The position numbers were made by a program, and so were the translations under genes. 41,834 nucleotides of DNA from Candidatus Methanomethylicus mesodigestus (lineage in GTDB: Archaea > Thermoproteota > Methanomethylicia > Methanomethylicales > Methanomethylicaceae), in the NCBI GenBank assembly GCA_001717005.1, contig MAGS01000039.1:49737-91570 (forward strand), written 5' to 3'. Of this stretch, positions 9,951 through 24,504 are shown one piece after another. The stretch's first letter is position 1, and every line of letters begins with the position of its first letter. The notes beneath the pieces are model-generated. The model did not search any database, had not been told where the DNA came from, and saw only the letters and a program-made list of their open reading frames with translations.

Positions 9951-11534
9951 ATGGCGCTAAAGTTTAGGTTTGGCAAAAGCCCGACTGGCAACAAAACCAC
10001 CGACAGGAAGGGCATTGACAAGAAATACCTGGGGAAGACGTTCTCATTGCACATCGCCGGCTCCAATGTGCCGCCACTCACGCCTGAGGCGTCTCTCCTG
10101 GAAGAGTACTCTGTGGGCGCAGCCAAAGTCAGCATATGCGAGCATGGCGGCGACGGCTACTACTGGATAACCGAGCCTCCAATGGGCGAATCAGACCTTG
10201 AACTGTACAACATACTGATGAACGCGATCTACTACACTATCCCGCCTAGCGAAGAGAAGGACCCGATGAAGATCATCGATGAGCGGCTGAACCATGCTGT
10301 AACCGAGCTGAAGCTCGCCCTCGCCCCGGAGCAGCTCAACAAGATAAGGTACTATGTCAAGCGCGATGTCTTGGGTTATGGCATATTCGACCCACTCATC
10401 AATGATGGGCGCATAGAGGACCTGTCGATGGCAGGCGTAGGGCGTCCCGTCTGGATCTTCCACAGGGATTATTCCCACTTCGACTGGCTGACGACCAACA
10501 TAGCCTTCAACGACGAGAGGGCGCTGGAATCCGGCATCATGCTGCTGGCACACAAGTCGAAGCGGCACATATCGACCGCCTTCCCCATCTCAGAAGGGTC
10601 CCTTCCTGAGCGCCACCGGTGCGCCTTGACGTTCGCAAACGAAGTATCTCCGTTCGGATCTAGCCTGACCATAAGGAAGTTCAGGTCAGATCCGCTAACC
10701 CTCTGCCACTTGGTCAAGTTCGGCAGCATATCCCCGCTCATGGCCGCATACTGGTGGCTCATACTGGAGAACCGCGGCTCGGCATTCGTAATAGGCGAGA
10801 TGGCAAGCGGCAAGACCACCCTCCTGAATGCGCTGGCATCGCTGCTGCCGCCCCACTGGAAGGTAGTCACTATCGAGGACACTCCCGAACTCAGGCTGCC
10901 CCACATGGGGTGGAAGCCGCTGGTTGCCCGCCACACTTACTCGATCGCGGAGTCGAAGACCGAGATCCGGCTGTACGATCTTGTCAAGCTCTCCCTCAGG
11001 GAGCGTGCTCAGTTCATAATCGTGGGCGAGATACGCGGCGAGGAGGCATACGTCTTCATACAGGCGCTGGCGACCGGCCACGGGGGCGGCTGCACATTCC
11101 ACGGCGACTCCGTGGAGTCTATGGTCATGCGCCTCACGACTGCCCCGATCAACGCCTCGCCCTCCTTCCTCCCCCTCATCAGCAGCGTCATAATCAGCCG
11201 GATGCTGAAGCTACCCGGCAGGAAGCCAATGAGGCGAGTCGTGGAGGCCAACGAGATAACCGGAGTCATCGGTCCCCAGTCTGTCGCGAGCAACAGGATA
11301 TTCGAGTGGAACGTTAACGACGACAAGCACTACCCTCTGGAGCCTGCAGAGGTCGTCAAGAGAAGCAGGAAGCTGGAGAAGCTGAGGACGATGCTCGGCC
11401 TTACACAGGACGAATTGACTGCGGAGCTCGGTCGCAGGAGGGACTTCGTGGATGCCATGGTAAGGAACGGTATATTGGAGTACGATGCAGTCTCGAACGA
11501 GATAAAGAAGTATTACTCCGGCAAGGTGCCTTAG
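9951..11534 (+). CDS. Type II/IV secretion system ATPase (ArlI/PilB-like) of the pilus operon
   Basis: 527 residues. A hexameric ATPase that powers pilus assembly at the cytoplasmic face of the membrane. Motifs in order are Walker A in GEMASGKTTLLN (about residues 282-293), the Asp box TIEDTPELRLPH (about 306-317), Walker B IIVGEIRGEEA (about 354-364) and the His box HGGGCTFHGDS (about 377-387). The N-terminal domain (RYYVKRDVLGYGIFDPLIND, LSMAGVGRPVWIFHRDY) is that of archaeal GspE/VirB11-type ATPases. An acidic-basic C-terminal extension of about 70 residues follows, as in many archaeal homologues. The four upstream pilin-like genes and the platform gene that follows directly argue for a dedicated pilus. 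No archaellum-specific genes (arlC/D/E, arlH) are present. Confidence 0.95.
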   Translation: MALKFRFGKSPTGNKTTDRKGIDKKYLGKTFSLHIAGSNVPPLTPEASLLEEYSVGAAKVSICEHGGDGYYWITEPPMGESDLELYNILMNAIYYTIPPSEEKDPMKIIDERLNHAVTELKLALAPEQLNKIRYYVKRDVLGYGIFDPLINDGRIEDLSMAGVGRPVWIFHRDYSHFDWLTTNIAFNDERALESGIMLLAHKSKRHISTAFPISEGSLPERHRCALTFANEVSPFGSSLTIRKFRSDPLTLCHLVKFGSISPLMAAYWWLILENRGSAFVIGEMASGKTTLLNALASLLPPHWKVVTIEDTPELRLPHMGWKPLVARHTYSIAESKTEIRLYDLVKLSLRERAQFIIVGEIRGEEAYVFIQALATGHGGGCTFHGDSVESMVMRLTTAPINASPSFLPLISSVIISRMLKLPGRKPMRRVVEANEITGVIGPQSVASNRIFEWNVNDDKHYPLEPAEVVKRSRKLEKLRTMLGLTQDELTAELGRRRDFVDAMVRNGILEYDAVSNEIKKYYSGKVP

Positions 11535-13448
11535 ATGGCCAAGCCCAAGCTTACCGTGCAGACGATCCTCGGCGCCATAGCCATCGTCATGTCATTCGGT
11601 ACCTTGATCGCCGAGCTGTTGCTTGACACCGCAATCACGATCATTGTGGCAACAATCGTCGTTCTGATGATCGCCATCTCGCTCACCATGATCATTGTGC
11701 TGAGGGGGGGCCTCTACTTCTCCCTCTCTAAGCGATACTATCCCGTGCAGGCCGCAGGCGAGGGCAACGAAAAACGGCAAGAGGCGGCTGCCAAGAAGCA
11801 GGAGCGTAAGTACGCCTCTACGGTCTCCTCATTCATGGGCGATCACGCTCTCATCAAGTACATCTCGAACTTCATGGCGAACAGCATAAAGGACGAGATT
11901 CCGAAGGCCATGATATACCTGCACCCAACAGTCTATTCCAAGTTCTACAGCACCGTCTTCCTGATCGTTCTGGCAGCGGTCATGCCCGCCGGTTTGGTGC
12001 TCCTCGCCCTCCTCCGGAACCCGCTTGCGCTGATCCCTGTCTTCGCGCCGATGATCATTGTGCTCATCCCTCTGATGGAGGTGAAGGTGAAGATATCGAA
12101 CAGGAAGAGCGATACCGCCAACGAGTTCCCCTTCTTCATGGTGTACGCCGCGGCGCTCCAGGCGGCGGGCCTCTCGCTCTACACCGCTCTTGACCGTCTC
12201 GCAGAGTGGCGGATCCTTCCGAAGATAAAGAGGGAGGCGCTCATCGTGAAGAGGGACTACCTCTTCTTCTCCCACAACCCGCTGCTCGCCATCGAGAATA
12301 TCGCACGTGACCACCCTGACGAGAACATAAAGACGATCTTCTTGGGGTACACATCAGTCCTCAGGAGCGGCGGAGACATGGTCGTATACCTCAACTCGAA
12401 GGTCGCTGACGGCCTTGAATCCGTAATAGGGCGCTGGCGGCGGTACGCCGAGTCGGCAAGCACGCTCGGGGAGATCTCCATCTCCGTCTTTCTCATGTTT
12501 CCCTCGTTGCTCATTGCGATGTCGATCGCATTCTCAAGCAATATGAGCCTTGCGATGATGCAGATCTATGGGTACATGATCCTGCCTCTGATGGGGGCTG
12601 TTCTGGTCATGGGCGTCCACATATCGCAGCCGCGGTTCTATGACCTATATAACATGAACCGGGCGCTGCTCATCGCGTTAGGCGCCTCCGCCGCATTCGG
12701 CGCCGCGACATACTTCTTCATCCCGTCTATGACATACTGGCTAACCTCGACGCTCTTGGTCTTCTCGATAATTGTTGGGACGGAGTACATCCGGGAGCAG
12801 AGCGACATCGGGAGGGTCGAGAAGGCGCTGCCATTCTTTCTAAGGGACATCACTGAGATGATGAAGATAGGCTACGACATCAACCAGACCATCATAAACC
12901 TGCCAAAGCAGAGGCAATACAACAGGACTTTCGACAGGCTCCTCAACCGTGTTGCTGAGCACCTTGAGATGAACATGCCCCTCCGCCGGGTCTCGGAGAC
13001 GATGATGGTCCGGAGCTGGCTCTGCAGGTACACTTTCTTCATACTGAGCGAGATCGTCGACACCGGCGGCGGCACGCCCCAGGTGCTGGAGAGCCTCACG
13101 CACTTCGTCAATGGGGTCGTCATTGAGAAGCAGAAGACCAAGAGCACGACCAGGGTCTACTCGTTCCTGGGATACGCGACCCCCGCCTTCCTCTCGGGCG
13201 TCATAATGTTCATGAGCAACATGCTGTTCCCGTCGCTGAGCAACCTTCCTGGAGGCCTGCTGCCGATCTCGATACTCCCCAACGCCGCAACGCTCTCCCT
13301 GATCGCATCTACCGGATCGTTCGTGGTCGTCCTCACCGCGTTCGTTGTCGGGCTGCTCATCGCCAAGATCGTCGACATGAGCGTATGTGCGACCCACCAC
13401 GCCGCGATCTGCCTGGCCATATGCATCGTCTCCTTCACGTTCCTCTGA
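11535..13448 (+). CDS. Type II/IV secretion platform protein (ArlJ/TadC-like), two T2SF domains
   Basis: 637 residues, starting at the base after the ATPase stop. A polytopic membrane platform that receives pilin subunits. Hydrophobic segments occur near residues 8-60, 135-180, 315-365, 378-420 and 540-637. Two cytoplasmic T2SF-type domains are recognisable: the first around FPFFMVYAAALQAAGLSLYT (about 195-215), the second around LPFFLRDITEMMKIGYDINQ (about 434-453). The domain-doubled layout is usual for archaeal ArlJ/PilC-like proteins. It is the last gene of the operon. A prepilin peptidase gene is not in the window and must lie elsewhere. Confidence 0.93.
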   Translation: MAKPKLTVQTILGAIAIVMSFGTLIAELLLDTAITIIVATIVVLMIAISLTMIIVLRGGLYFSLSKRYYPVQAAGEGNEKRQEAAAKKQERKYASTVSSFMGDHALIKYISNFMANSIKDEIPKAMIYLHPTVYSKFYSTVFLIVLAAVMPAGLVLLALLRNPLALIPVFAPMIIVLIPLMEVKVKISNRKSDTANEFPFFMVYAAALQAAGLSLYTALDRLAEWRILPKIKREALIVKRDYLFFSHNPLLAIENIARDHPDENIKTIFLGYTSVLRSGGDMVVYLNSKVADGLESVIGRWRRYAESASTLGEISISVFLMFPSLLIAMSIAFSSNMSLAMMQIYGYMILPLMGAVLVMGVHISQPRFYDLYNMNRALLIALGASAAFGAATYFFIPSMTYWLTSTLLVFSIIVGTEYIREQSDIGRVEKALPFFLRDITEMMKIGYDINQTIINLPKQRQYNRTFDRLLNRVAEHLEMNMPLRRVSETMMVRSWLCRYTFFILSEIVDTGGGTPQVLESLTHFVNGVVIEKQKTKSTTRVYSFLGYATPAFLSGVIMFMSNMLFPSLSNLPGGLLPISILPNAATLSLIASTGSFVVVLTAFVVGLLIAKIVDMSVCATHHAAICLAICIVSFTFL

Positions 13449-13572: not shown

Positions 13573-14700
13573 ATGAGCTCGGTAACGTTCTTCTTCGTCA
13601 CCGTTGCTGTCTTCTCGACCGGCTTCGGCATAATGACGCCTGCCGTTCCTATATATGCGGGCGCGATTGCATCAGCGAACGCCCTGGAGCTGGGCCTTCT
13701 GGGGGCATTCACCGCCGTGCCGTATATATTCATGCCCGCCGTCTTCGGCAAGATATCCGACCGCATAGGCCGGAAGCCGCCGCTTATCGGAGGGCTGCTG
13801 CTCTACGCCGCAGCATGCGTCATGTACGCCCAGTCTACCACATTCCTCCAGCTCTCGATCCTGAGGGTGCTGGAGGGCGTGTGCTTCTCTGCGGTATGGC
13901 CCTCCGCCGAGGCATTTGTGGGCGACAAGAGCGACGGCATCAGCCGCTCGGCATTGGTCGGCATGTACAGCGTATCGTGGAGTTTCGGATACATGGCAGG
14001 CCCCATCGTGCTGGGTGCGGTCATACCCTATACCGATATCCACAACGCCTTCTACGGCGTCGCGCTCTTCATGGCGGCCGGAGCCTCGATGGTGGCCGCC
14101 ATCAAGATGCCTCAGGTGCCCAAGCAGCCATCAGAGGCCACCGCCCCGACAGGGGTCAGCGGGCTGCCGCTCATCATATATGTGATGATAATGTGGGGCT
14201 TCGCCACGCTCTCCTTCCTCTTCCTCTTCCCCTCCTACGCTGCGATAGCAGGGCTCAACGCCTCACTGATCAGCTACCTCGTCGGCATCACGTCTCTTGT
14301 CAGGACGCTGGTCTTCGTATTCTACAGGCGCATCCTCTCGATTCTGGGGAGGTCGACAATTGGGCTTGGGATGATCGCGCTCTCCGCATCCATGTTCTTC
14401 TCATGGGCAGCGCCCTCCGCCGCGGGCTTTGCGGCTTCTGTGGCACTCCTCGGGCTTGCCCTCGGGCTCCTATATGCGCACTCCCTCGCATTCGTGCTCA
14501 ACAAGCCTGCCAAGGGGTTCTATGCCGGCCTCTTCGAGTCCGCTATCGGCATAGGCGAGCTCATAGGGCCGATGCTTATGGGGTACATAGGCTTCATATC
14601 CGCACCGTCGTCGCCCTACCTCTTGCTGGCCATTCTGGCTGCGATATCCGCCGTGCTTACCCTGAGGGCTATGCGCGGCTTCTATCGTATAAGCTCTTGA
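13573..14700 (+). CDS. Major facilitator superfamily transporter
   Basis: 375 residues with about 12 hydrophobic helices. The MFS loop 2-3 signature is GKISDRIGRKPPLIGG (about residues 60-75), and a second conserved block is LRVLEGVCFSAVWPSAEAF (about 99-117). The substrate cannot be read from sequence; the fold resembles drug or sugar/H+ antiporters. ATG at 13573 (MSSVTFFFVTV) gives a normal first helix; the upstream in-frame GTG at 13507 would add a poorly conserved leader. Its last 32 bp overlap the 3' end of the convergent thioredoxin gene. It follows the pilus operon by about 120 bp with its own promoter not clearly visible. Confidence 0.88.
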   Translation: MSSVTFFFVTVAVFSTGFGIMTPAVPIYAGAIASANALELGLLGAFTAVPYIFMPAVFGKISDRIGRKPPLIGGLLLYAAACVMYAQSTTFLQLSILRVLEGVCFSAVWPSAEAFVGDKSDGISRSALVGMYSVSWSFGYMAGPIVLGAVIPYTDIHNAFYGVALFMAAGASMVAAIKMPQVPKQPSEATAPTGVSGLPLIIYVMIMWGFATLSFLFLFPSYAAIAGLNASLISYLVGITSLVRTLVFVFYRRILSILGRSTIGLGMIALSASMFFSWAAPSAAGFAASVALLGLALGLLYAHSLAFVLNKPAKGFYAGLFESAIGIGELIGPMLMGYIGFISAPSSPYLLLAILAAISAVLTLRAMRGFYRISS

Positions 14701-14989
14701 GGTCCCTCACTCTAAGCCCATCGTATCCTGGGCGTTTCCTGGAGACCTCGCGGCCTGAACTGAAGAGGACCGCCGTCGGGACAGTGCTTACCCCGAACCC
14801 GTCCCACGCCGGGTCGTCATCGGAAGATATGTCAACCTCAACCGCAACGAAATCCGCTTGAGACCTTTCGAGTTCGCTCATAAGCGCCCTGCAGAATCCG
14901 CACCATTTTGTGCTGAAGACTGCGACGAACTCTCCTCCCGAATCAATTCTATCCCTGAGCTTCTCGCTGGATATGCACTCTATTTTCAT
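14669..14989 (-). CDS. Thioredoxin-fold protein (WCGFC active site)
   Basis: 106 residues. The redox motif is in FSTKWCGFCRALMSEL (Cys at about 27 and 30), with the cis-proline block VSTVPTAVLF. This is a single-domain thioredoxin-like disulfide oxidoreductase of the cytoplasm (no signal peptide). ATG at 14989 has a G-rich ribosome-binding run just upstream (GGGGGGCAATCT); a longer ATG start at 15019 is possible. It lies directly downstream of the hydrogenase large subunit on the same strand and is probably the last gene of that operon. Its role may be redox or sulfur handling linked to the sulfhydrogenase (inference). Its 3' end overlaps the MFS gene. Confidence 0.88.
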   Translation of the reverse strand: MKIECISSEKLRDRIDSGGEFVAVFSTKWCGFCRALMSELERSQADFVAVEVDISSDDDPAWDGFGVSTVPTAVLFSSGREVSRKRPGYDGLRVRDLKSLYDRSRA

Positions 14990-15005
14990 AGATTGCCCCC
15001 CTTTT

Positions 15006-16328
15006 TTAGTAGATGTCAAGGCTCACCGCACATGAGAGGCATGGATCATACGCGCGCGTCATGTCCTCAAGAATGTACCTCATCTTCTCGACCCCCAGCG
15101 GCCTGAACTTCTTGACGAACTCCGCTGCGTCCAGCTCTATGCTCTTCGAGTTGACCGCCGTCGGGGTGTAGACCTTGTAGCTCTTTATCTTGCCATTCTC
15201 CACCTCGCACGCATGGCAGAGTGCACCGCGTGGCGCTTCGGCCACGAAGAATCCCCTCCCTGTGCCCTGACAGTCAGGGATCTCGCCCTGAGTGGCGCTG
15301 CAGTTAACGCCCGATGCAGCCCCCTCTTTGCTCGGCTCGACCATTATGTCCCCCAGCCTCTGCCCTGCCGCTATCAGCTCCTCCATATAGTGGACGACCT
15401 CGACCGCCTGTGCCTTTATTATCAGGAACGGGTTCATGCGCCACTCGACCCGCTCGGCGAACGCCTTCGCCTCGGGCTTCAGGTGCCTCCTGTTGAGGAT
15501 GACACGTGACAGCGCACCGACCGTCAGCTCCGAGTTTCTGAAGTATGCGTGTTTGGAAGTTGAGTAGTACTTCGTCACCTCGGTGATGCTGTCGTAATAC
15601 TCGTCGCTGGTGAGCAGCGAGCCATCGTTCAAAACCATCGACGCGTCCTCGGCATACGTAGGGTAATGCCCCGGATTCCTGAGCGATCCTAAGGGCCGGT
15701 ACCTCTCCAGCTCAGGCAGATCCAGCTCAATAGCATAATCCGCAAACTTCCTCGCATCATTCATCAGCCCCTCGAGTTCATGCACCGAGCTTACGAGCTG
15801 CCTGCCATTCATGACTGCCCCGAAGCCGCCCACGACGACATTCGGGACGTGGACCGACCTGCCGCCCCATACCTCGATGAGCTCCGTCGACTTCGTGAGG
15901 AGCCTCGTTCCAGCCTCGTAAAGGTCCTTGTCGCGGAGCCTGAGGACGCTGATGACGCCCTTTATCGAGGGCAGGGTGAGGTATAGCAGGTGCATTACGT
16001 GGCTCCTCAGGTTGTTTGCAAGGTAAAGCACGTTGCGGAGCTCCCTGACCTCCTTGGAGACCTTGATGCCGAGCGCCCTCTCGATGGCCTCTGCCGCGTT
16101 TATCGAGTGCGCGGTGTAGCAGAGGCCGCATATCCTGGATGCTACCATCGGAGCCATCTCGATGGGCTTTCCCACAAGGTACTTTGTGAGGAACCTCGGC
16201 CCCTCCAAATTCTGGAACTCCGCCACTGTGTCGCCCCCTGCCATCCTGACCTGGAGGCGCGCATGCCCCTCGATAAACCTCAGCTCGTTTGTATCTACTA
16301 TGACGTCTCCCTTGCTGCTACCGCCCAT
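15006..16328 (-). CDS. hydA: [NiFe] hydrogenase group 3b, large (alpha) subunit
   Basis: 440 residues. The catalytic subunit holds the NiFe centre. The proximal L1 motif is RICGLCYTAHS (Cys67 and Cys70); the C-terminal L2 motif is DPCLSC (Cys430 and Cys433). Blocks EGHARL and EGPRFL are also conserved. In most homologues the L2 motif ends with His (or Arg), after which a protease removes the C-terminal tail. Here Ser436 occupies that position and a four-residue tail LDIY follows. This is unusual and is read directly from the DNA (AGC). It is the fourth gene of an operon in the order beta, gamma, delta, alpha, as in the Pyrococcus sulfhydrogenase. It overlaps the delta gene by 11 bp. The maturation genes are not in the window. 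Confidence 0.95.
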   Translation of the reverse strand: MGGSSKGDVIVDTNELRFIEGHARLQVRMAGGDTVAEFQNLEGPRFLTKYLVGKPIEMAPMVASRICGLCYTAHSINAAEAIERALGIKVSKEVRELRNVLYLANNLRSHVMHLLYLTLPSIKGVISVLRLRDKDLYEAGTRLLTKSTELIEVWGGRSVHVPNVVVGGFGAVMNGRQLVSSVHELEGLMNDARKFADYAIELDLPELERYRPLGSLRNPGHYPTYAEDASMVLNDGSLLTSDEYYDSITEVTKYYSTSKHAYFRNSELTVGALSRVILNRRHLKPEAKAFAERVEWRMNPFLIIKAQAVEVVHYMEELIAAGQRLGDIMVEPSKEGAASGVNCSATQGEIPDCQGTGRGFFVAEAPRGALCHACEVENGKIKSYKVYTPTAVNSKSIELDAAEFVKKFRPLGVEKMRYILEDMTRAYDPCLSCAVSLDIY

Positions 16329-17061
16329 CCTTCAACAACTCCTTTGCCTTCTTCCCCGTGAACATCCTCAGCATCATCAGCGCCTTCTCCTTCCCTATCC
16401 CCTTCTTCTCGAGGGTTAGCAGGTATGCCTTCAGGTCGGCCTCCATGGCCGGGCCCCGACAGCTGTAGCACGCCGAGCCGACCGTGGGGCATGCCGCGCC
16501 GCAGCCTCCCATAGCGAGCGGGCCAAGGCAGACCTTCTTCGCATCGAGGAGGCACGGATTTCCCTTGCTCTTGCACTCATAGCAGACCGAAAAATCGGGC
16601 TGTATGGGCTCTATGCTGTTGATGAGCCTCAGAAGCGCCTCCGTGAACTCCTCTGCGCTGACCGGACAGCCGCTCAGCTCAAAGTCTACTGCCACCAACG
16701 ATGAGAGCGGCTCGGCAGGGGATATCTCCAGGTCCCTTAGGTGCTTCGCCTCGAAATCGACATCCCTAGACGCGGCGTATGCGATATTTCCGCTCGAGGC
16801 GCAGGTCCCAAGCGCCACGACGAAGCTGGAGTTCTTCCTTATTTCGGTCAGGGTCCTCCGGTCGCGATCCGTGACGACCGCCCCCTCCACAAACGCTATG
16901 TCCGCCTTAGGTATTCTGGTGCCGCCAACCGGCTCCCTCACCAGCTTAAAGTAGTCTATGTCGAACATCTTCCAGAGCACCTCTACGTTGGGCCCGAGGT
17001 TGGTTATCAGCGTAGTCAGGCAGCCCTCGCAGGAGGTGAGTGCGTAGAATGCGAGCCTCAT
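16318..17061 (-). CDS. hydD: [NiFe] hydrogenase group 3b, small (delta) subunit
   Basis: 247 residues. It carries the iron-sulfur clusters that pass electrons from the NiFe site. Proximal-cluster cysteines are in SCEGC (Cys11, Cys14), GTCASSG and SGCPVS. The C-terminal part holds CYECKSKGNPC, KKVCLGPLAMGGCGAACP and SACYSC for two more [4Fe-4S] clusters. No Tat signal is present, so the enzyme is cytoplasmic, as expected for group 3b. The length is slightly shorter than the roughly 260-residue Pyrococcus subunit. The start is 4 bp after the gamma stop, with AGGGG upstream. Confidence 0.95.
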   Translation of the reverse strand: MRLAFYALTSCEGCLTTLITNLGPNVEVLWKMFDIDYFKLVREPVGGTRIPKADIAFVEGAVVTDRDRRTLTEIRKNSSFVVALGTCASSGNIAYAASRDVDFEAKHLRDLEISPAEPLSSLVAVDFELSGCPVSAEEFTEALLRLINSIEPIQPDFSVCYECKSKGNPCLLDAKKVCLGPLAMGGCGAACPTVGSACYSCRGPAMEADLKAYLLTLEKKGIGKEKALMMLRMFTGKKAKELLKDGR

Positions 17062-17065
17062 ACGA

Positions 17066-17899
17066 TCATTCCCCTATGGCCCCTATGCTGATGTCCGCGA
17101 CCCTGAAGACCGGGCCGTCAATGCAGACGTGTTTTCCGCCCGGGATTATGCACCTGGCGCACTTCCCTATCCCGCACTTCATGTGCCTCTCGAGAGAGAC
17201 GTATATGTCGCCGCTGGATATGCCGTGCTTCACGAGCGCGTCCGCTATGCTCGACATGACCGCGGGCGAGCCGCAGACCGCCGCGACCGTTCCCTTGCCC
17301 AGCCTCAGCGAGCCCAGGTGGTCGGTGACCCTGCCCCTCAGCCCGCGCCACTCCGGAGGCGCCTTGCTCAGGGTGATGACCACATTGATCGACTTCTCCC
17401 ACTCCTTCAGTTCATCGCGATATACTATGTCCTCTAGGAACCTGGCCCCATAGAGCAGCGTCACATCGTTGAACTTCTTGCGGTTCTCGATCGCATATAT
17501 TATCAGCGACTTGAGGGCGGCAATGCCTATGCCCGTGGCTACGATAAGGAGGTCCTTGCCCACAAACGCGTCTAATGGGAATGGTTTGCCCAATGGCCCC
17601 CTGATTCCAACCGCATCCCCCGGACGGAGGTAGTGGACGGACGTCGTGAGGATGCCCCTCCTTATTATCGTGAGATCGATGTGCTTCTGGTCCAATTGGG
17701 ACGATGCGATGCAGAACGGCGCCTCCCCAACACCCGGGAGCAGAAGCTGGACGAACTGCCCCGGCACAAAGCTGAGCCTCCAGTTGTAGAGCTTCAGCCG
17801 GAGCGTCTTGGTCTCGAGGCTCTCGTTCTTGACAGTGATTATCGTCACTGGCTTCGGGATATACGGGTTCACATCCCCTGCCACCGCCTTTGCCATCAT
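17066..17899 (-). CDS. hydG: Sulfhydrogenase gamma subunit (FAD/NAD(P)-binding)
   Basis: 277 residues of the ferredoxin-NADP reductase fold. The FAD domain has VPGQFVQLLLPG and PFCIASS, and the nucleotide-binding domain has LLIVATGIGIAALKSL and VCGSPAVM. A C-terminal [2Fe-2S] cluster motif is in CGIGKCARC plus a later Cys (GKHVC). This flavoprotein lets the group 3b hydrogenase exchange electrons with NAD(P)H. Its ATG overlaps the beta stop by 4 bp. Order and spacing support one operon with the neighbours. Confidence 0.95.
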   Translation of the reverse strand: MMAKAVAGDVNPYIPKPVTIITVKNESLETKTLRLKLYNWRLSFVPGQFVQLLLPGVGEAPFCIASSQLDQKHIDLTIIRRGILTTSVHYLRPGDAVGIRGPLGKPFPLDAFVGKDLLIVATGIGIAALKSLIIYAIENRKKFNDVTLLYGARFLEDIVYRDELKEWEKSINVVITLSKAPPEWRGLRGRVTDHLGSLRLGKGTVAAVCGSPAVMSSIADALVKHGISSGDIYVSLERHMKCGIGKCARCIIPGGKHVCIDGPVFRVADISIGAIGE

Positions 17900-18936
17900 G
17901 CGACCCTCCTACCGACGAACTCTCGGAAGTCAACGCCTGCCGGGCAGTAAGCGACGCAGTTGCCGCATCCGGTGCACCCGACCAGCTTGAATGCATTGAT
18001 TGAGAACGGGAACTTGTGCTTAACCCGCCACTTAAACCTCTCCTCCTTTGCATGCAGGAACGCGGTCCCCCCGGCGATGGCGCTGTAGCATTTTCGTTGA
18101 CACGACATCCTCGTCCGCATCCTGCTTACATTGGACGGATCGACGAGGCTGAACTTGTCCTCGATGTCCATGCAGTAGCAGGTGGGGCAGGTTACGGTGC
18201 ATGCCGCGCAGAGCGTGCAAGCCTCCAATGACTTCGGAGCCCCTTTGGCGTCTATTTCCTGTTCATCCCTTGCCACGAGCTCAAAGTCGTTGACCATCTT
18301 CGGAACCGGCTTCGGATACGCCCCTTGGGCATCCTGCTTCTTTAGCCGTGAGAGCAGCTCTTTACCCGCCTCCGATGCCGCGTTGACGAGGTAGCCGCTG
18401 CTGCTCTTCCTCATCTGGATGTCCGCATAGCCCGCCGGTATCTTGTAAGTGCCGAGCGTCCTACACATGCAGTATTCGTCTCCTTCATCGCAGTCCAGTT
18501 CAGCAATGAACATGCCCTCCCGCCGGTTCTTGTAATACGGGTCCGCTGGATCACTCATCATAACCTTGTCCAGATATCTTACCGAACTTACCATGCACTG
18601 GTGAATGCCGAAGAACGCCAGCCTCTCTCTGATCGGGAGGTATTCTGGAAGAATGGTAACGGGGCAAGGCCCCTCTGCAGTTGGGAACCTGATCTTGAGG
18701 CCGTACGACGTTATCGTAGCTGTGCTCCTGTACCGGAAGAGCGACTCATCGTCAGGCAAAAGGAACTTCTTCGGAGAATTGATGATTCTGATATATTCCA
18801 CCTCAGGCTGGTCGTCGGGACCGAGGGGAGCGAGCTTTACGACCCCGCCGGCCCTGATCGGCGCTATGACCCTGTAGCCCATTGCCGAAAGCAGAGATGG
18901 AATCTGAAGCAGCTCCTGCTTGGATATCTTTATCAT
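17896..18936 (-). CDS. hydB: Sulfhydrogenase beta subunit (4Fe-4S)
   Basis: 346 residues from ATG at 18936. Two C-terminal [4Fe-4S] motifs are CTLCAACTVTCPTCYC (about residues 233-248) and CTGCGNCVAYCPAG (about 326-339). This is a ferredoxin-like electron-transfer subunit, and the first half matches the sulfhydrogenase beta family. The start at 18936 is chosen because GGTGAG lies just upstream, whereas an in-frame ATG at 18975 lies inside the TATA box. It is the first gene of the hydrogenase operon. Confidence 0.93.
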   Translation of the reverse strand: MIKISKQELLQIPSLLSAMGYRVIAPIRAGGVVKLAPLGPDDQPEVEYIRIINSPKKFLLPDDESLFRYRSTATITSYGLKIRFPTAEGPCPVTILPEYLPIRERLAFFGIHQCMVSSVRYLDKVMMSDPADPYYKNRREGMFIAELDCDEGDEYCMCRTLGTYKIPAGYADIQMRKSSSGYLVNAASEAGKELLSRLKKQDAQGAYPKPVPKMVNDFELVARDEQEIDAKGAPKSLEACTLCAACTVTCPTCYCMDIEDKFSLVDPSNVSRMRTRMSCQRKCYSAIAGGTAFLHAKEERFKWRVKHKFPFSINAFKLVGCTGCGNCVAYCPAGVDFREFVGRRVA

Positions 18937-18971
18937 CGTCTCACCGGCTAGACAACAAAACAACGCCTTCC

Positions 18972-18980
18972 GCATATATT
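18972..18980 (-). promoter_or_regulatory. TATA box of the hydrogenase operon
   Basis: The minus strand reads AAGTAATATATGCGG, about 40 bp before the ATG at 18936, giving a leader of roughly 15 nt that contains GGTGAG. Confidence 0.6.
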
Positions 18981-19111: not shown

Positions 19112-19492
19112 TCAGGTGAGCTCCCCGATCTCCACGATCGTCCCTCTGGCATTGATCTTCTCGGCAATCACCGCGCCCGGTCTGGTTATCCTAAGTGGAG
19201 TTCCCCTGTCCTGCATGGAGCCGCACTCGAGCAGGAGGCTATCCCGCAGGTTGTTCAGGCTCCATTTGGCGGTTGATTCCGGCATGCCGAGCCCTTTTAC
19301 TATCTCCCTCACGTGCCAAGAGTACGTCTTGCCCACCGCCGAGCCGCTCCTCTGACATGAATATACGTACAGGAGAACGCGCTTCTGCATGTCTGTCATG
19401 CTCTTCTCGGCCAACTTCACAAGGGCATCTTCAATGGTCGCAGAGGGTCTGGTATTTACAAGGCATTGAGCCTTAACAGAAAAGTCGAGCAC
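19112..19492 (-). CDS. Winged-helix transcriptional regulator
   Basis: 126 residues. The central part MQKRVLLYVYSCQRSG, WHVREIVKGLGMPESTAKWS then LNNLRDSLLLECG, followed by TPLRITRPGAVIAEKI, is a winged-helix DNA-binding fold of the archaeal type. The recognition helix is STAKWSLNNLR. A single-domain cytoplasmic regulator is expected. The annotated GTG start at 19492 is uncertain; GTG at 19420 or ATG at 19399 would also keep the whole DNA-binding domain. It lies upstream of and in the same direction as the hydrogenase operon, but a strong hairpin and a separate promoter lie between. AACAGAA half-sites surround its TATA box, which suggests autoregulation (see findings). Confidence 0.8.
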   Translation of the reverse strand: MLDFSVKAQCLVNTRPSATIEDALVKLAEKSMTDMQKRVLLYVYSCQRSGSAVGKTYSWHVREIVKGLGMPESTAKWSLNNLRDSLLLECGSMQDRGTPLRITRPGAVIAEKINARGTIVEIGELT

Positions 19493-20586: not shown

Positions 20587-23500
20587 ATGCCTCATTTAGG
20601 TGATGCCCTCGGTCTGACGCTGGGTCAGCGCGTTTCGCTCACGCTTGCGCTATGCGCTCTGGTATTCTTCTTCAGCACGCAGGCATGCACGCTTGGTTAC
20701 TCCGAGACGGTCAACATGCCTGCTGGTGCGCTCTCATTCGGCGCCTCGTTCTCGCCGGCAGGGACATCGTTCGATCAGGTCTTGGGCTTCCACAACGGCG
20801 ACCCGATCATAGCTAGGTACTCTGTGGCACTCCAAGACGGCATAGAGGTCTACGCTTCCGCCTCAACACCCACCTCTCTCGGAGGGCGGCCAAACGTGAA
20901 CTCCTCTGGCTCGTTCACTGCCACCGTTGCTGGCGCATTGCCCTTCTCTTATATAGAATGGGCCCTTCTGGGTGCGTCGCAGTCCATCGTCAGCGCCCAT
21001 GCCCCTGATGTGACAATGGGGAGCATCGCATACGCATTCACCACGTCCGGAAGGCAGGATGCTGGGGGCACATCATGTACGTTCCTTGGTCCCTGCGTCT
21101 GGGCTGCCGCCGATTTCTGGTACCCGAATTCGGAGATATTCACTGACTGCTCGCTGATCAAGGTCAGGCTGACCTTTGCCTACATGCAGGTCAAGCTGTA
21201 TAGAACGGAGATTTCCGTGAGCTATGCCCCCGCCTCAGGTGTGGCTCCCCTGCAGGTCGCCTTCTCGGCATCTGTGAAGGACGGCGTTGCGCCCTATACC
21301 TTCTCGTGGGATTTCGCCGGTCTTGGCGCCTCGAGCCAGCAGAACCCCTCCTTCACCTTCGAGTCTCCTGGCACATACACCGTCCTGTGCACTGCCACTG
21401 ACTCGCTGGGCGTCTCAGACACGAAATCCACCACGGTCTGCGTCTCGTCGCTCTGGCTCGAGATCTCTTCCCAGGGAAGCGGTAACACCTCTCCCCCCTC
21501 GGGCACCTATGGCGTGAAACAGGGGGAGCAGGCGATCATAAGCGCGACCCCCTCCTCAGGCTACGTGCATGACGGCTGGATTCTCGACGGGTCTTGGGGA
21601 GGTGCGGCGAACCCGATCACTGTGGTGATGAACTCGAACCACATCCTTAAGGCCATCTTCGTAGAGGCAGTCAGCGTCTCCGCATGGGCATCGCCACAAT
21701 CCGGAGCTGCACCTTTGACCGTTGCATTCCTTAGCCGTGCAAGCGGGGGAACGCCCCCATACTCATATTCTTGGTCATTCGGTGACGGCGGAACCTCCGG
21801 TCAGCAGAACTGCAGCCATACCTATTCGCAGCCCGGCTCCTACGCCGCCGTGTTGCGTGTAACGGACTCTGCCGGACGGGCCGGGCAGGCGCAGCTTGGA
21901 ATCGAAGCTGCCCGCGGTGAACAGCCCCCCTCGATCTGGTTGACCAAGTCAAACGACATATCCGTGGCGCAGGGTGGCTCAGAATCCTCGACAATTGGGG
22001 TCTACTCCAGCTCCCCAGTGACTGCCACTATCGCGCTTCAGTGGGTGGGCACCGTGCCAGCCTCATCCAGCCTCTCCCTTTCGAGGCAATCCGGCGCGAC
22101 AAACTACTCCTCCGCCTTGGTGTTCTCTGCAGGCGCAGGAACTCCTGCGGGGGTCTTTACGCTCAGGGTCACCGCGAGCGCCGGAGGCGTCTCGGGGCAC
22201 ATCGATGTAACCATCACCGTATCGCAGGCATACTGCACTCTCACCATATCCGCTGAGCCCGGAGGGACGACGCGCCCGTCGCCCGGGGCCCGCCTCTGCT
22301 CGATCGGCTCCGTGCAGCAGGCGGTTGCCGTACCTTCCCAAGAGTATGCCTTCGATCATTGGGCATTGGACGGCTATTACTACTCTTCCGCGCCGCAAAT
22401 CTCCATATTTATGGATAAGAACCATTACCTTAGGGCATACTTCTCCGCAACGCCCCCTGCTTTGGAGGAGACCTTAGTCTTCGAGGCAATGGTCTGGAAC
22501 GGCACCGGCTGGGATCGTGGGGACTTCTCGGAATGGGGGACCGTCGTTATAACCGGCGGGGCGCCTTCCCAATCCTTCTCAGATTCGCCGCACAACATTC
22601 TGCTGGCATCGGCGACAGTTGTCGCCTTCCAGTTCTTGCCTGTCTGCAACGATGGATCGCTGCTCAACGAAAGCGGGGGCCCGCCCGTGTCGCTGCTCTT
22701 CGCACTCGACGTGATCAACTCGAGCGGGACTATCCCTGTGGCGCCTTCCTCTGCCTCATACCCGCAGTCCTGCAGCGTCTATGCCGGCGCAGAGCCCGTG
22801 ACCGTAATGCTCTATCTTAAGAGCTTCGACTTTGCTGTCAGCGTCTCCTCCCCGACACCCGACTGGGGGGCGGTAGACGTCTCGTCAGACTCCCCCTGTT
22901 GGCCGATATACTATGCCGCATATAGCGCCTACACGAATGGCTACGGTGCGTATACGGTCGACACAGGCTATCACATATCCGTGAAGGCAGAGCCGTTCAG
23001 CGGATACTACTTCGACAGGATCGTCGTTGGCGGCCGGACATTCTACTCGCCTGAGGTTACATTGGGTCCGGTCGTATCCAACGGGTCTGTAGAGGTGTAC
23101 TTCTCTGCCACGCCGCCGACGTTCGACCTCCAGATATCATCAACCGCCGGCGGCTCGACGCTGCCATCGCCGGGGCTGTACCGCCTGCCACGCCATTCGA
23201 TCCAGGATGTTGCGGTCTATCAGATCGTTGACGGCTACTCCTTCGCGGGATGGTTTTTGGACGGGGAATACGCCGGCGGAGGCTCCTCGATATCTGTAAT
23301 GATGGACACTGACCACTCCCTCCTCGCCAAGTTCGAGGATGACTATTGGAACCCCGACCGGATCAACGTAAGGCCATGCGACCTAGAGACCGGCGTCATG
23401 TACCGAAGACTCATTGGTGGAGAATGCATCGGAGTAAACGTCTCCGGGCGAATAAGCGGCATAACCGCACCAACACCCGTCTCTATAACGGTCTGGTTCA

Positions 23501-24504
23501 GCGCCGGCAGCGCATCTTACTTGGGCTCTACGATAGGCATCATCGCCGACGGATCATGCCTCGCCAAGTCCGAGGCGATAACCGACGGGTCCGGATCCTT
23601 CTCGACTGTGATAGGCAACCTCACAGGTTGCTGGGTCACAAGCAATCTCGACCCGGGCTCCATCCACCTCGTATTCGCAGAGGTGACCGCCGGCGGAGCG
23701 ACCTACTCTGCAAACGGCTCATGGACTGCCGAATACATCGCCGCGCATTCCGCCTTCAGCTACAACCTGTCCGGCGCACTGGCCGCCGTCCACCTGACCT
23801 ACTCCGACGGAAGTCCGCTTGAGGGGCGCGTGGGGTCATATGTCATATCCATCAACGAGATCGGCGCAGGCTTCTCCTCTCCGAACGACCGATCAGGCGA
23901 CTGCCTCCTATGGATCCCCTACGCTGCCATGGAACGCGTCGACTACATCGCCAGCAACTGGTCCCTTTCCATCTTCTCCAATCTCAGCGGCTCCCCCTCC
24001 GCAATACCGTCGTTCCTCCCGTCTCAGATCCGTTTCACGACGCTCTCAGGTCAATTCCTCACGCATAACGATACGCATCTCGCGATACAGGCGTTCGATT
24101 GGGGATCTGACGGCCTCGAACCGGTCGAGGGGGCATCTGCAATCCTCTGGTGGGGCGATGAGCGCATCTGGGGCAGCTCAGCGGCGGAGATCATCGATAT
24201 CCGCCTCTCCGCCCCTTCAGAATGCGTGCTTCTTCAGGGATACGCTGGCAGCGTCCTGATCTCGCCCGACCAGCTGAGGTGGCATATCGACGCCTCGCTG
24301 AGCATAGATCTAGAGGGTGATTTCCTGAGGGGCGCGATACTCGTCACGCACCCGAGCATCTCCGCGGCAATCGCCGGCAGGCCCTCCGGATGCAGGCTGT
24401 ATCTTATGCTGCTGCCCCCCGACTCGAGCAATGTTCTGTACTGTCCGACGAGGTCTGGCGTCTTCCTCCTCGCGTCGTCGGTGGCTCCGCCTCAGGGCTG
24501 GTGA
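20587..24504 (+). CDS. Giant secreted surface protein with PKD and InlB-type repeats
   Basis: 1305 residues. A signal peptide (about residues 14-34, VSLTLALCALVFFFSTQAC) is followed by a modular extracellular chain. PKD domains lie at about 210-285 and 361-440 (TFSWDFAGLGASSQQNPSFT and YSWSFGDGGTSGQQN are the typical cores). InlB B-repeat-like modules with the pattern G-x-T-x-PSPG ... F-x-W-LDG ... H-LxAxF occur at about 290-358, 549-621 and 843-918, with a degenerate one at about 750-841. Ig-like segments occupy about 445-545 and 919-1305. Many cysteines are scattered between domains. No transmembrane anchor is seen at the C-terminus, so it may be released or held by partners. The next two genes encode small membrane-anchored proteins and may be part of the same system (inference). 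Confidence 0.85.
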   Translation: MPHLGDALGLTLGQRVSLTLALCALVFFFSTQACTLGYSETVNMPAGALSFGASFSPAGTSFDQVLGFHNGDPIIARYSVALQDGIEVYASASTPTSLGGRPNVNSSGSFTATVAGALPFSYIEWALLGASQSIVSAHAPDVTMGSIAYAFTTSGRQDAGGTSCTFLGPCVWAAADFWYPNSEIFTDCSLIKVRLTFAYMQVKLYRTEISVSYAPASGVAPLQVAFSASVKDGVAPYTFSWDFAGLGASSQQNPSFTFESPGTYTVLCTATDSLGVSDTKSTTVCVSSLWLEISSQGSGNTSPPSGTYGVKQGEQAIISATPSSGYVHDGWILDGSWGGAANPITVVMNSNHILKAIFVEAVSVSAWASPQSGAAPLTVAFLSRASGGTPPYSYSWSFGDGGTSGQQNCSHTYSQPGSYAAVLRVTDSAGRAGQAQLGIEAARGEQPPSIWLTKSNDISVAQGGSESSTIGVYSSSPVTATIALQWVGTVPASSSLSLSRQSGATNYSSALVFSAGAGTPAGVFTLRVTASAGGVSGHIDVTITVSQAYCTLTISAEPGGTTRPSPGARLCSIGSVQQAVAVPSQEYAFDHWALDGYYYSSAPQISIFMDKNHYLRAYFSATPPALEETLVFEAMVWNGTGWDRGDFSEWGTVVITGGAPSQSFSDSPHNILLASATVVAFQFLPVCNDGSLLNESGGPPVSLLFALDVINSSGTIPVAPSSASYPQSCSVYAGAEPVTVMLYLKSFDFAVSVSSPTPDWGAVDVSSDSPCWPIYYAAYSAYTNGYGAYTVDTGYHISVKAEPFSGYYFDRIVVGGRTFYSPEVTLGPVVSNGSVEVYFSATPPTFDLQISSTAGGSTLPSPGLYRLPRHSIQDVAVYQIVDGYSFAGWFLDGEYAGGGSSISVMMDTDHSLLAKFEDDYWNPDRINVRPCDLETGVMYRRLIGGECIGVNVSGRISGITAPTPVSITVWFSAGSASYLGSTIGIIADGSCLAKSEAITDGSGSFSTVIGNLTGCWVTSNLDPGSIHLVFAEVTAGGATYSANGSWTAEYIAAHSAFSYNLSGALAAVHLTYSDGSPLEGRVGSYVISINEIGAGFSSPNDRSGDCLLWIPYAAMERVDYIASNWSLSIFSNLSGSPSAIPSFLPSQIRFTTLSGQFLTHNDTHLAIQAFDWGSDGLEPVEGASAILWWGDERIWGSSAAEIIDIRLSAPSECVLLQGYAGSVLISPDQLRWHIDASLSIDLEGDFLRGAILVTHPSISAAIAGRPSGCRLYLMLLPPDSSNVLYCPTRSGVFLLASSVAPPQGW

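Follow-up and report, generated by a model that had tools for sequence, protein, structure and literature searches.

A serine-type, group-3b-like [NiFe] hydrogenase clade centred on Methanomethylicaceae with a possibly dismantled C-terminal metal site

The terminal His or Arg of the large subunit and the Glu of its L1 motif are among the motifs that define [NiFe] hydrogenases, Arg being a known alternative to the terminal His; hydrogenase maturation is widely taken to include the C-terminal ion and an endoproteolytic check. Five consensus motifs have been published for the large subunit, including L1 RGxE and L5 DPCx2Cx2H/R (PMC3325256). In FrhA, the ligands of the C-terminal ion are Glu44, the main-chain O of Ala347 and the C-terminal His386 (PMC3930138), the role of Glu44 being also covered in a further paper (PMC3591093). 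Maturation without cleavage is known for groups 2b, 2d, 4c, 4e and 4g (PMC7294309, PMC12134894). In P. furiosus SHI, the nearest characterised enzyme to the one described here, the uncut form with the 4-residue tail VVRL is inactive until FrxA removes the tail (PMC2865534); a tail of four residues can therefore matter, and retaining one would require structural adaptation.

The stretch of DNA analysed here (the window, 41,834 nucleotides) belongs to a metagenome bin of Candidatus Methanomethylicus and carries on its minus strand an operon in the order beta, gamma, delta and alpha, the last being the final hydrogenase gene, followed by a thioredoxin-like gene. The beta subunit (17896..18975, 359 aa) was identified as a 4Fe-4S electron-transfer protein (ShyB, 3.5e-38; PF17179), the gamma subunit (17066..17899, 277 aa) as an FAD/NAD(P)-binding reductase with an Fe-S domain (HydG, 4.9e-61; PF00970, PF00175 and PF10418), and the delta subunit (16318..17061, 247 aa) as a hydrogenase small subunit (ShyD/HydD, 1.1e-39; PF01058). 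The ORF at 15006-16328 encodes the large (alpha) subunit of 440 aa, the C-terminus of which reads RAYDPCLSCAVSLDIY upon translation; internal stops are met when the same segment is read on the plus strand. By the alpha subunit, the nearest named relative is M. oleisabuli (87% identical). The gene for the thioredoxin/glutaredoxin-like protein (14669..15019, minus strand; TIGR01068, 1e-7; PF13098) overlaps the 3' end of the alpha gene and adjoins the operon in most of the genomes of the family Methanomethylicaceae inspected.

Upstream of beta, a conserved protein of 126 aa (19112..19492, minus strand) had zero matches in family searches; counterparts lie upstream of the operon at loci L009 and L088, the latter (genome G005) encoding a protein with 51% identity to it, and a regulator is one possible function. 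Several other genes were noticed in the surroundings. A 1305-aa protein encoded at 20587-24504 is apparently a repeat-containing surface protein, with PKD-like stretches judged by eye, and a long protein upstream of the operon in genome G006 (L090, 1014-4853) resembles it at the C-terminal end. The region 9951-13448 is predicted from its sequence to encode a secretion-type ATPase and a large membrane protein that resemble those of an archaellum or type IV pilus; near the operons L087, L094 and L096 there is likewise a long membrane protein with a C-terminus (SFTF) similar to that of the one in the window. On the contig of the window and about 45 kb from it, a protein of 567 aa was found in which complex I 30-kDa- and 49-kDa-like domains are fused (L097; G000:C33:3991-5694), with a weak match to hydrogenases.

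Four Ni-binding cysteines are kept in the alpha subunit, Cys67 and Cys70 in RICGLC (residues 65-70) and Cys430 and Cys433 in DPCLSC (residues 428-433), and alignment revealed them in every clade member covering these motifs; the sequence-only reading of this ORF, which had counted all four as present, was right on this point. A complex I 49-kDa-like non-hydrogenase, for which loss of Ni-binding cysteines would be expected, was rejected since all four are there. The L4 motif (Gx4PRGx3H) is represented by APRG (residues 365-368), containing the active-site Arg367, with a nearly invariant His372, and the L0 Glu is kept along with the conserved PTA and the histidines of SHxxH. As the pocket is intact and a HypD gene is present, insertion of the cofactor by Hyp proteins is likely.

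The make-up of a group 3b operon is found here in the FAD/NAD(P)-binding gamma, the Fe-S beta and the small delta subunits, and P. furiosus SHI provides the nearest solved structures both by sequence and by fold (Foldseek, TM 0.86 to 9nf0). The best NCBIfam models for the alpha subunit were HydA/ShyA (9.8e-55), which describe the alpha subunits of P. furiosus-type hydrogenases I and II, with scores of 186 and 183 bits relative to curated cut-offs of 880 and 700 bits, respectively, these being narrow equivalog models. Two of the five published consensus motifs are missed, as L1 RGxE reads PRFLT and L5 DPCx2Cx2(H/R) reads DPCLSCAVS (residues 428-436; 15021..15047). The architecture would thus be that of group 3b, whereas the defining motifs and family cut-offs were failed, and the enzyme is probably best called a serine-type, group-3b-like variant. 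Phylogenetic analysis placed the serine-type sequences in a monophyletic clade (support 100/100) on a stem of 0.96 changes per site, the position of which relative to the canonical 3b enzymes depends on deeper forks that are weak or affected by long branches. We propose that the complex is a cytosolic [NiFe] hydrogenase, group-3b-like and linked to NAD(P), and that it belongs to a distinct clade with its centre in Methanomethylicaceae. A search of open-access papers found no description of a serine-type variant.

Minus-strand translation bears out that the L5 motif ends in Ser436, encoded by AGC (15021-15023; two changes from CAC) in place of His/Arg, and that a tail LDIY (residues 437-440; 15009..15020) follows, as the sequence-only reading had it. 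That reading had also taken non-His residues in most close relatives, together with normal processing, as a reason to drop the point, and had left room for a sequencing error. All close relatives indeed carry Ser, so that the finding is not explained away but becomes a trait that defines the clade. Of the Methanomethylicaceae orthologues, 16 have a C-terminus that can be read; all of these (61-87% identical) carry Ser436 and end in DPCLSCAVSLD followed by 2-7 residues. A sequence from another class of Thermoproteota (G358, 43% identical) has Ser too, with the C-terminus YDPCTSCAVSLDHTVKI and the same beta-gamma-delta-alpha order. The DNA of 398 Thermoproteota genomes was scanned for the pattern Y-D-P-C-x-x-C-x-x-Ser, separately with AGY and TCN codons. 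With AGY it matched in the 16 family members, in G358 and once in G049, and with TCN there were zero matches; the G049 match (YDPCACCGKS) was taken as chance from its sequence alone. An error of sequencing or assembly is refuted, and together with a private mutation it is left with a practically negligible probability, by the same residue in 17 genomes and by synonymous variation at its codon (AGC/AGT).

The conservation extends beyond the serine. Ser-Leu-Asp (residues 436-438) was invariant in 17 of 17 sequences, while two synonymous codons were used for Ser (AGC/AGT), five for Leu and two for Asp (GAC/GAT), and the tail beyond Asp438 was variable. An acidic residue at +2 occurred in all 17 serine-type tails vs none of the 22 His-type tails, in which the +1 and +2 residues vary freely. 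Judging from these sequences, Leu437 and Asp438 appear to be under strict purifying selection. Another kind of C-terminus was seen in two further Thermoproteota families, f34 and f57 (L109, L110, L111, L112, L114, L115 and L116), where hydrogenase large subunits end at the motif His without extension (DPCLPC[AS]VH, then stop), with P-x-V-A-G for R-x-E-G (L0 Glu to Ala) and QNNxxHV for xSHxLHL; read-through of an in-frame TAG in the distant homologues L110 and L111 was considered and rejected, these being ordinary stops directly after the terminal His.

The second altered motif concerns residue 48 (codon at 16185..16187), the Glu of R-x-x-E in L1, which was equated with the metal-binding FrhA Glu44 (PMC3930138, PMC3591093) by motif and by spacing to RxC rather than by direct alignment with FrhA. 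It is Glu in 34 of 34 aligned His/Arg homologues and in none of the 17 serine-type members covering the position, among them G022, which has the same operon order but has lost the alpha C-terminus at a contig end. In the family, Thr is found in 14 of the 15 members covering it and Ser in M. oleisabuli; G358 has Pro and G022 has Thr. In a column scan, only residues 48, 374, 384 and 436 told all clade members apart from the His/Arg homologues: residue 374 (15207..15209) is Cys in the clade vs Tyr in 32 of 34 homologues, and residue 384 (15177..15179) is Tyr vs Ala in 31 of 34. Both side-chain ligands of the ion site, Glu48 and the terminal His, thus appear to have been lost together. Since the clade is monophyletic on its long stem, the two losses are best explained by a single event, after which residue 48 drifted between Thr, Ser and Pro; the co-occurrence of the replacements does not amount to many independent events, because all trace to one ancestral branch.

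The AlphaFold model supports the fold, its tail being of low confidence (pLDDT 58 over the last ten residues), and its secondary structure places residues 374 and 384 on the strands 368-377 and 380-387. By analogy with FrhA, this strand pair may supply the third, main-chain ligand, carried by the second strand, and from the modelled secondary structure Cys374 and Tyr384 would then lie near the ion site. What the present analysis adds to the sequence-only reading is that Ser is fixed throughout the clade, that the L1 Glu48 is gone (Thr in the window) and that the whole Ser-Leu-Asp is invariant; that the L1 Glu has gone along with the His is a stronger sign of a rebuilt C-terminal metal site than Ser436.

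A look through the genome for the maturation protease gene, a check proposed in that reading, yielded one HycI homologue away from the operon, in a block of non-hydrogenase genes conserved in G004, G009 and G012. One HycI was found in all more complete family genomes, with or without the serine-type enzyme, and it is present in G008, G009, G012, G013 and G021 even though the enzyme is absent there. No HycI gene lay beside the ten serine-type operon regions inspected (L086-L091, L094-L096 and L009), L091 being the G022 operon cut within alpha. Among the family genomes, only G005 carries a canonical His-type 3b operon as well, and a second HycI adjoins that operon; in G026 HycI is located directly downstream of a canonical 3b operon. 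The protease is hence decoupled from the serine-type enzyme at the genomic level. Three assemblies (G011, G019 and G020; 73-85% complete) contain the serine-type enzyme and no HycI, which is uninformative because the usual flanking gene of HycI is missing there too. The group 4 large subunit EhbN has Arg and a tail of about 23-25 residues in 10 of 10 genomes read (EhbN-like L098, 6257-7438, and relatives L132-L140; motif DPCL[TA]CCTR, with the tail conserved); as it keeps both, EhbN is a likely substrate of the single HycI shared by the family. The sequence-only reading had suggested that processing might be altered, might be absent or might fall to a divergent protease. This was reasonable, and of the three the evidence leans to absent, given no adjoining HycI, its decoupling and EhbN as a likely alternative substrate.

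Taken together, the reading to which we lean, with modest confidence, is that of a Hyp-matured, group-3b-like hydrogenase whose C-terminal metal site has been dismantled and whose active site is closed with the short tail kept. The NiFe(CN)2CO pocket would be canonical, with the usual Hyp proteins inserting the cofactor. The ion site, formed by the L1 Glu, the terminal His and a main-chain carbonyl, would have lost its two side-chain ligands, Glu48 (to Thr/Ser/Pro) and His436 (to Ser), possibly compensated for in the adjacent strand pair by Tyr374 to Cys and Ala384 to Tyr. The active site would close with no peptide removed, the short tail Ser-Leu-Asp-x staying on and Leu437 and Asp438 helping to hold the C-terminus in place. 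We infer that the site holds no metal, that the tail is retained and that the serine-type enzyme is active on H2. The adaptations that tail retention would demand may lie in the 48/436 pair, in Cys374/Tyr384 and in the invariant SLD. A fuller version, which we put forward tentatively and hold somewhat short of probable, is a protease-free lineage of group 3 in which the SLD end, Cys374/Tyr384 and a small residue 48 replace the Glu/His ion site and lock the active site while the tail stays on, Asp438 or Cys374 perhaps serving as new ligands.

Alternatively, the one HycI-type protease of the genome could act on both EhbN and the serine-type enzyme, cutting after Ser436 to leave a terminal Ser, the ion then being absent or coordinated by water and the backbone. 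The presence of one HycI in all more complete family genomes agrees with this, as do the weak processing of SHI by P. furiosus HycI (PMC2865534) and the very existence of a short tail whose extreme end varies, like that of cleaved tails. The distribution of HycI, however, does not follow that of the serine-type enzyme, EhbN is a second likely substrate that is conserved, and Leu437 and Asp438 are strictly conserved vs the variable +1 and +2 of His-type tails, an observation that protease recognition could explain as well; on balance such cleavage seems unlikely, although it carries more weight than the other alternatives. Were processing to take place elsewhere, for example after Asp438, a C-terminal carboxylate or Asp could become a new ligand, and the invariant Ser-Leu-Asp with variation starting right after Asp438 would fit; but no protease of such specificity was identified and merely 2-7 residues lie beyond the Asp, so that we regard this as very improbable.

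A departure from hydrogenase function altogether is only slightly less improbable. The complex might bind the cofactor or another metal and carry out another redox reaction among NAD(P)H, the thioredoxin-like partner and Fe-S proteins, in keeping with the depth of the clade (stem 0.96 changes per site), the alteration of two of five consensus motifs and the thioredoxin-like gene that closes the operon in most genomes. Retention of the four Cys, Arg367, the L0 Glu, PTA and the SHxxH histidines, with HypD present, argues against it.

Our preferred reading, that of a hydrogenase matured with its tail retained, suggests that the serine-type enzyme is finished and closed differently from known hydrogenases. 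A natural lineage in which both ligands are replaced, the pocket is kept and no dedicated protease is seen offers a test of the purpose of the ion site and of cleavage. If tail retention is true, easier production in foreign hosts might follow, as SHI from P. furiosus depends on its own protease when made in E. coli. The serine-type sequences also mark a clade of H2 enzymes, poorly scored by standard models, in uncultured archaea proposed as methanogens.

Compared with described systems, the serine-type enzyme shares with the group 3b enzymes P. furiosus SHI (HydBGDA) and SHII (ShyBCDA) and T. kodakarensis HyhL the beta-gamma-delta-alpha operon, the FAD/NAD(P) gamma, the four Cys, the fold and about 30% identity, but differs from them in the terminal Ser, the L1 Thr, Cys374/Tyr384, the invariant SLD, the lack of a protease gene in the operon and a score of 186 vs 880 bits. 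Arg-type, group-3-like enzymes of other Thermoproteota (L104-L108) similarly have the terminal His replaced and a short tail, whereas they carry Arg at the motif end, keep the L1 Glu and form a separate clade (100/99). FrhA, of the F420-reducing hydrogenase (group 3a), is a homologous large subunit, but it keeps both side-chain ion ligands and has a 19-residue tail removed, probably by FrhD, unlike the tail retention proposed here. Groups 2b, 2d, 4c, 4e and 4g resemble the serine-type enzyme in that no cleavage takes place, as we propose for the latter; however, they are without extension (PMC7294309), whereas the serine-type enzyme, which is group-3b-like, has a short tail starting with the invariant SLD.
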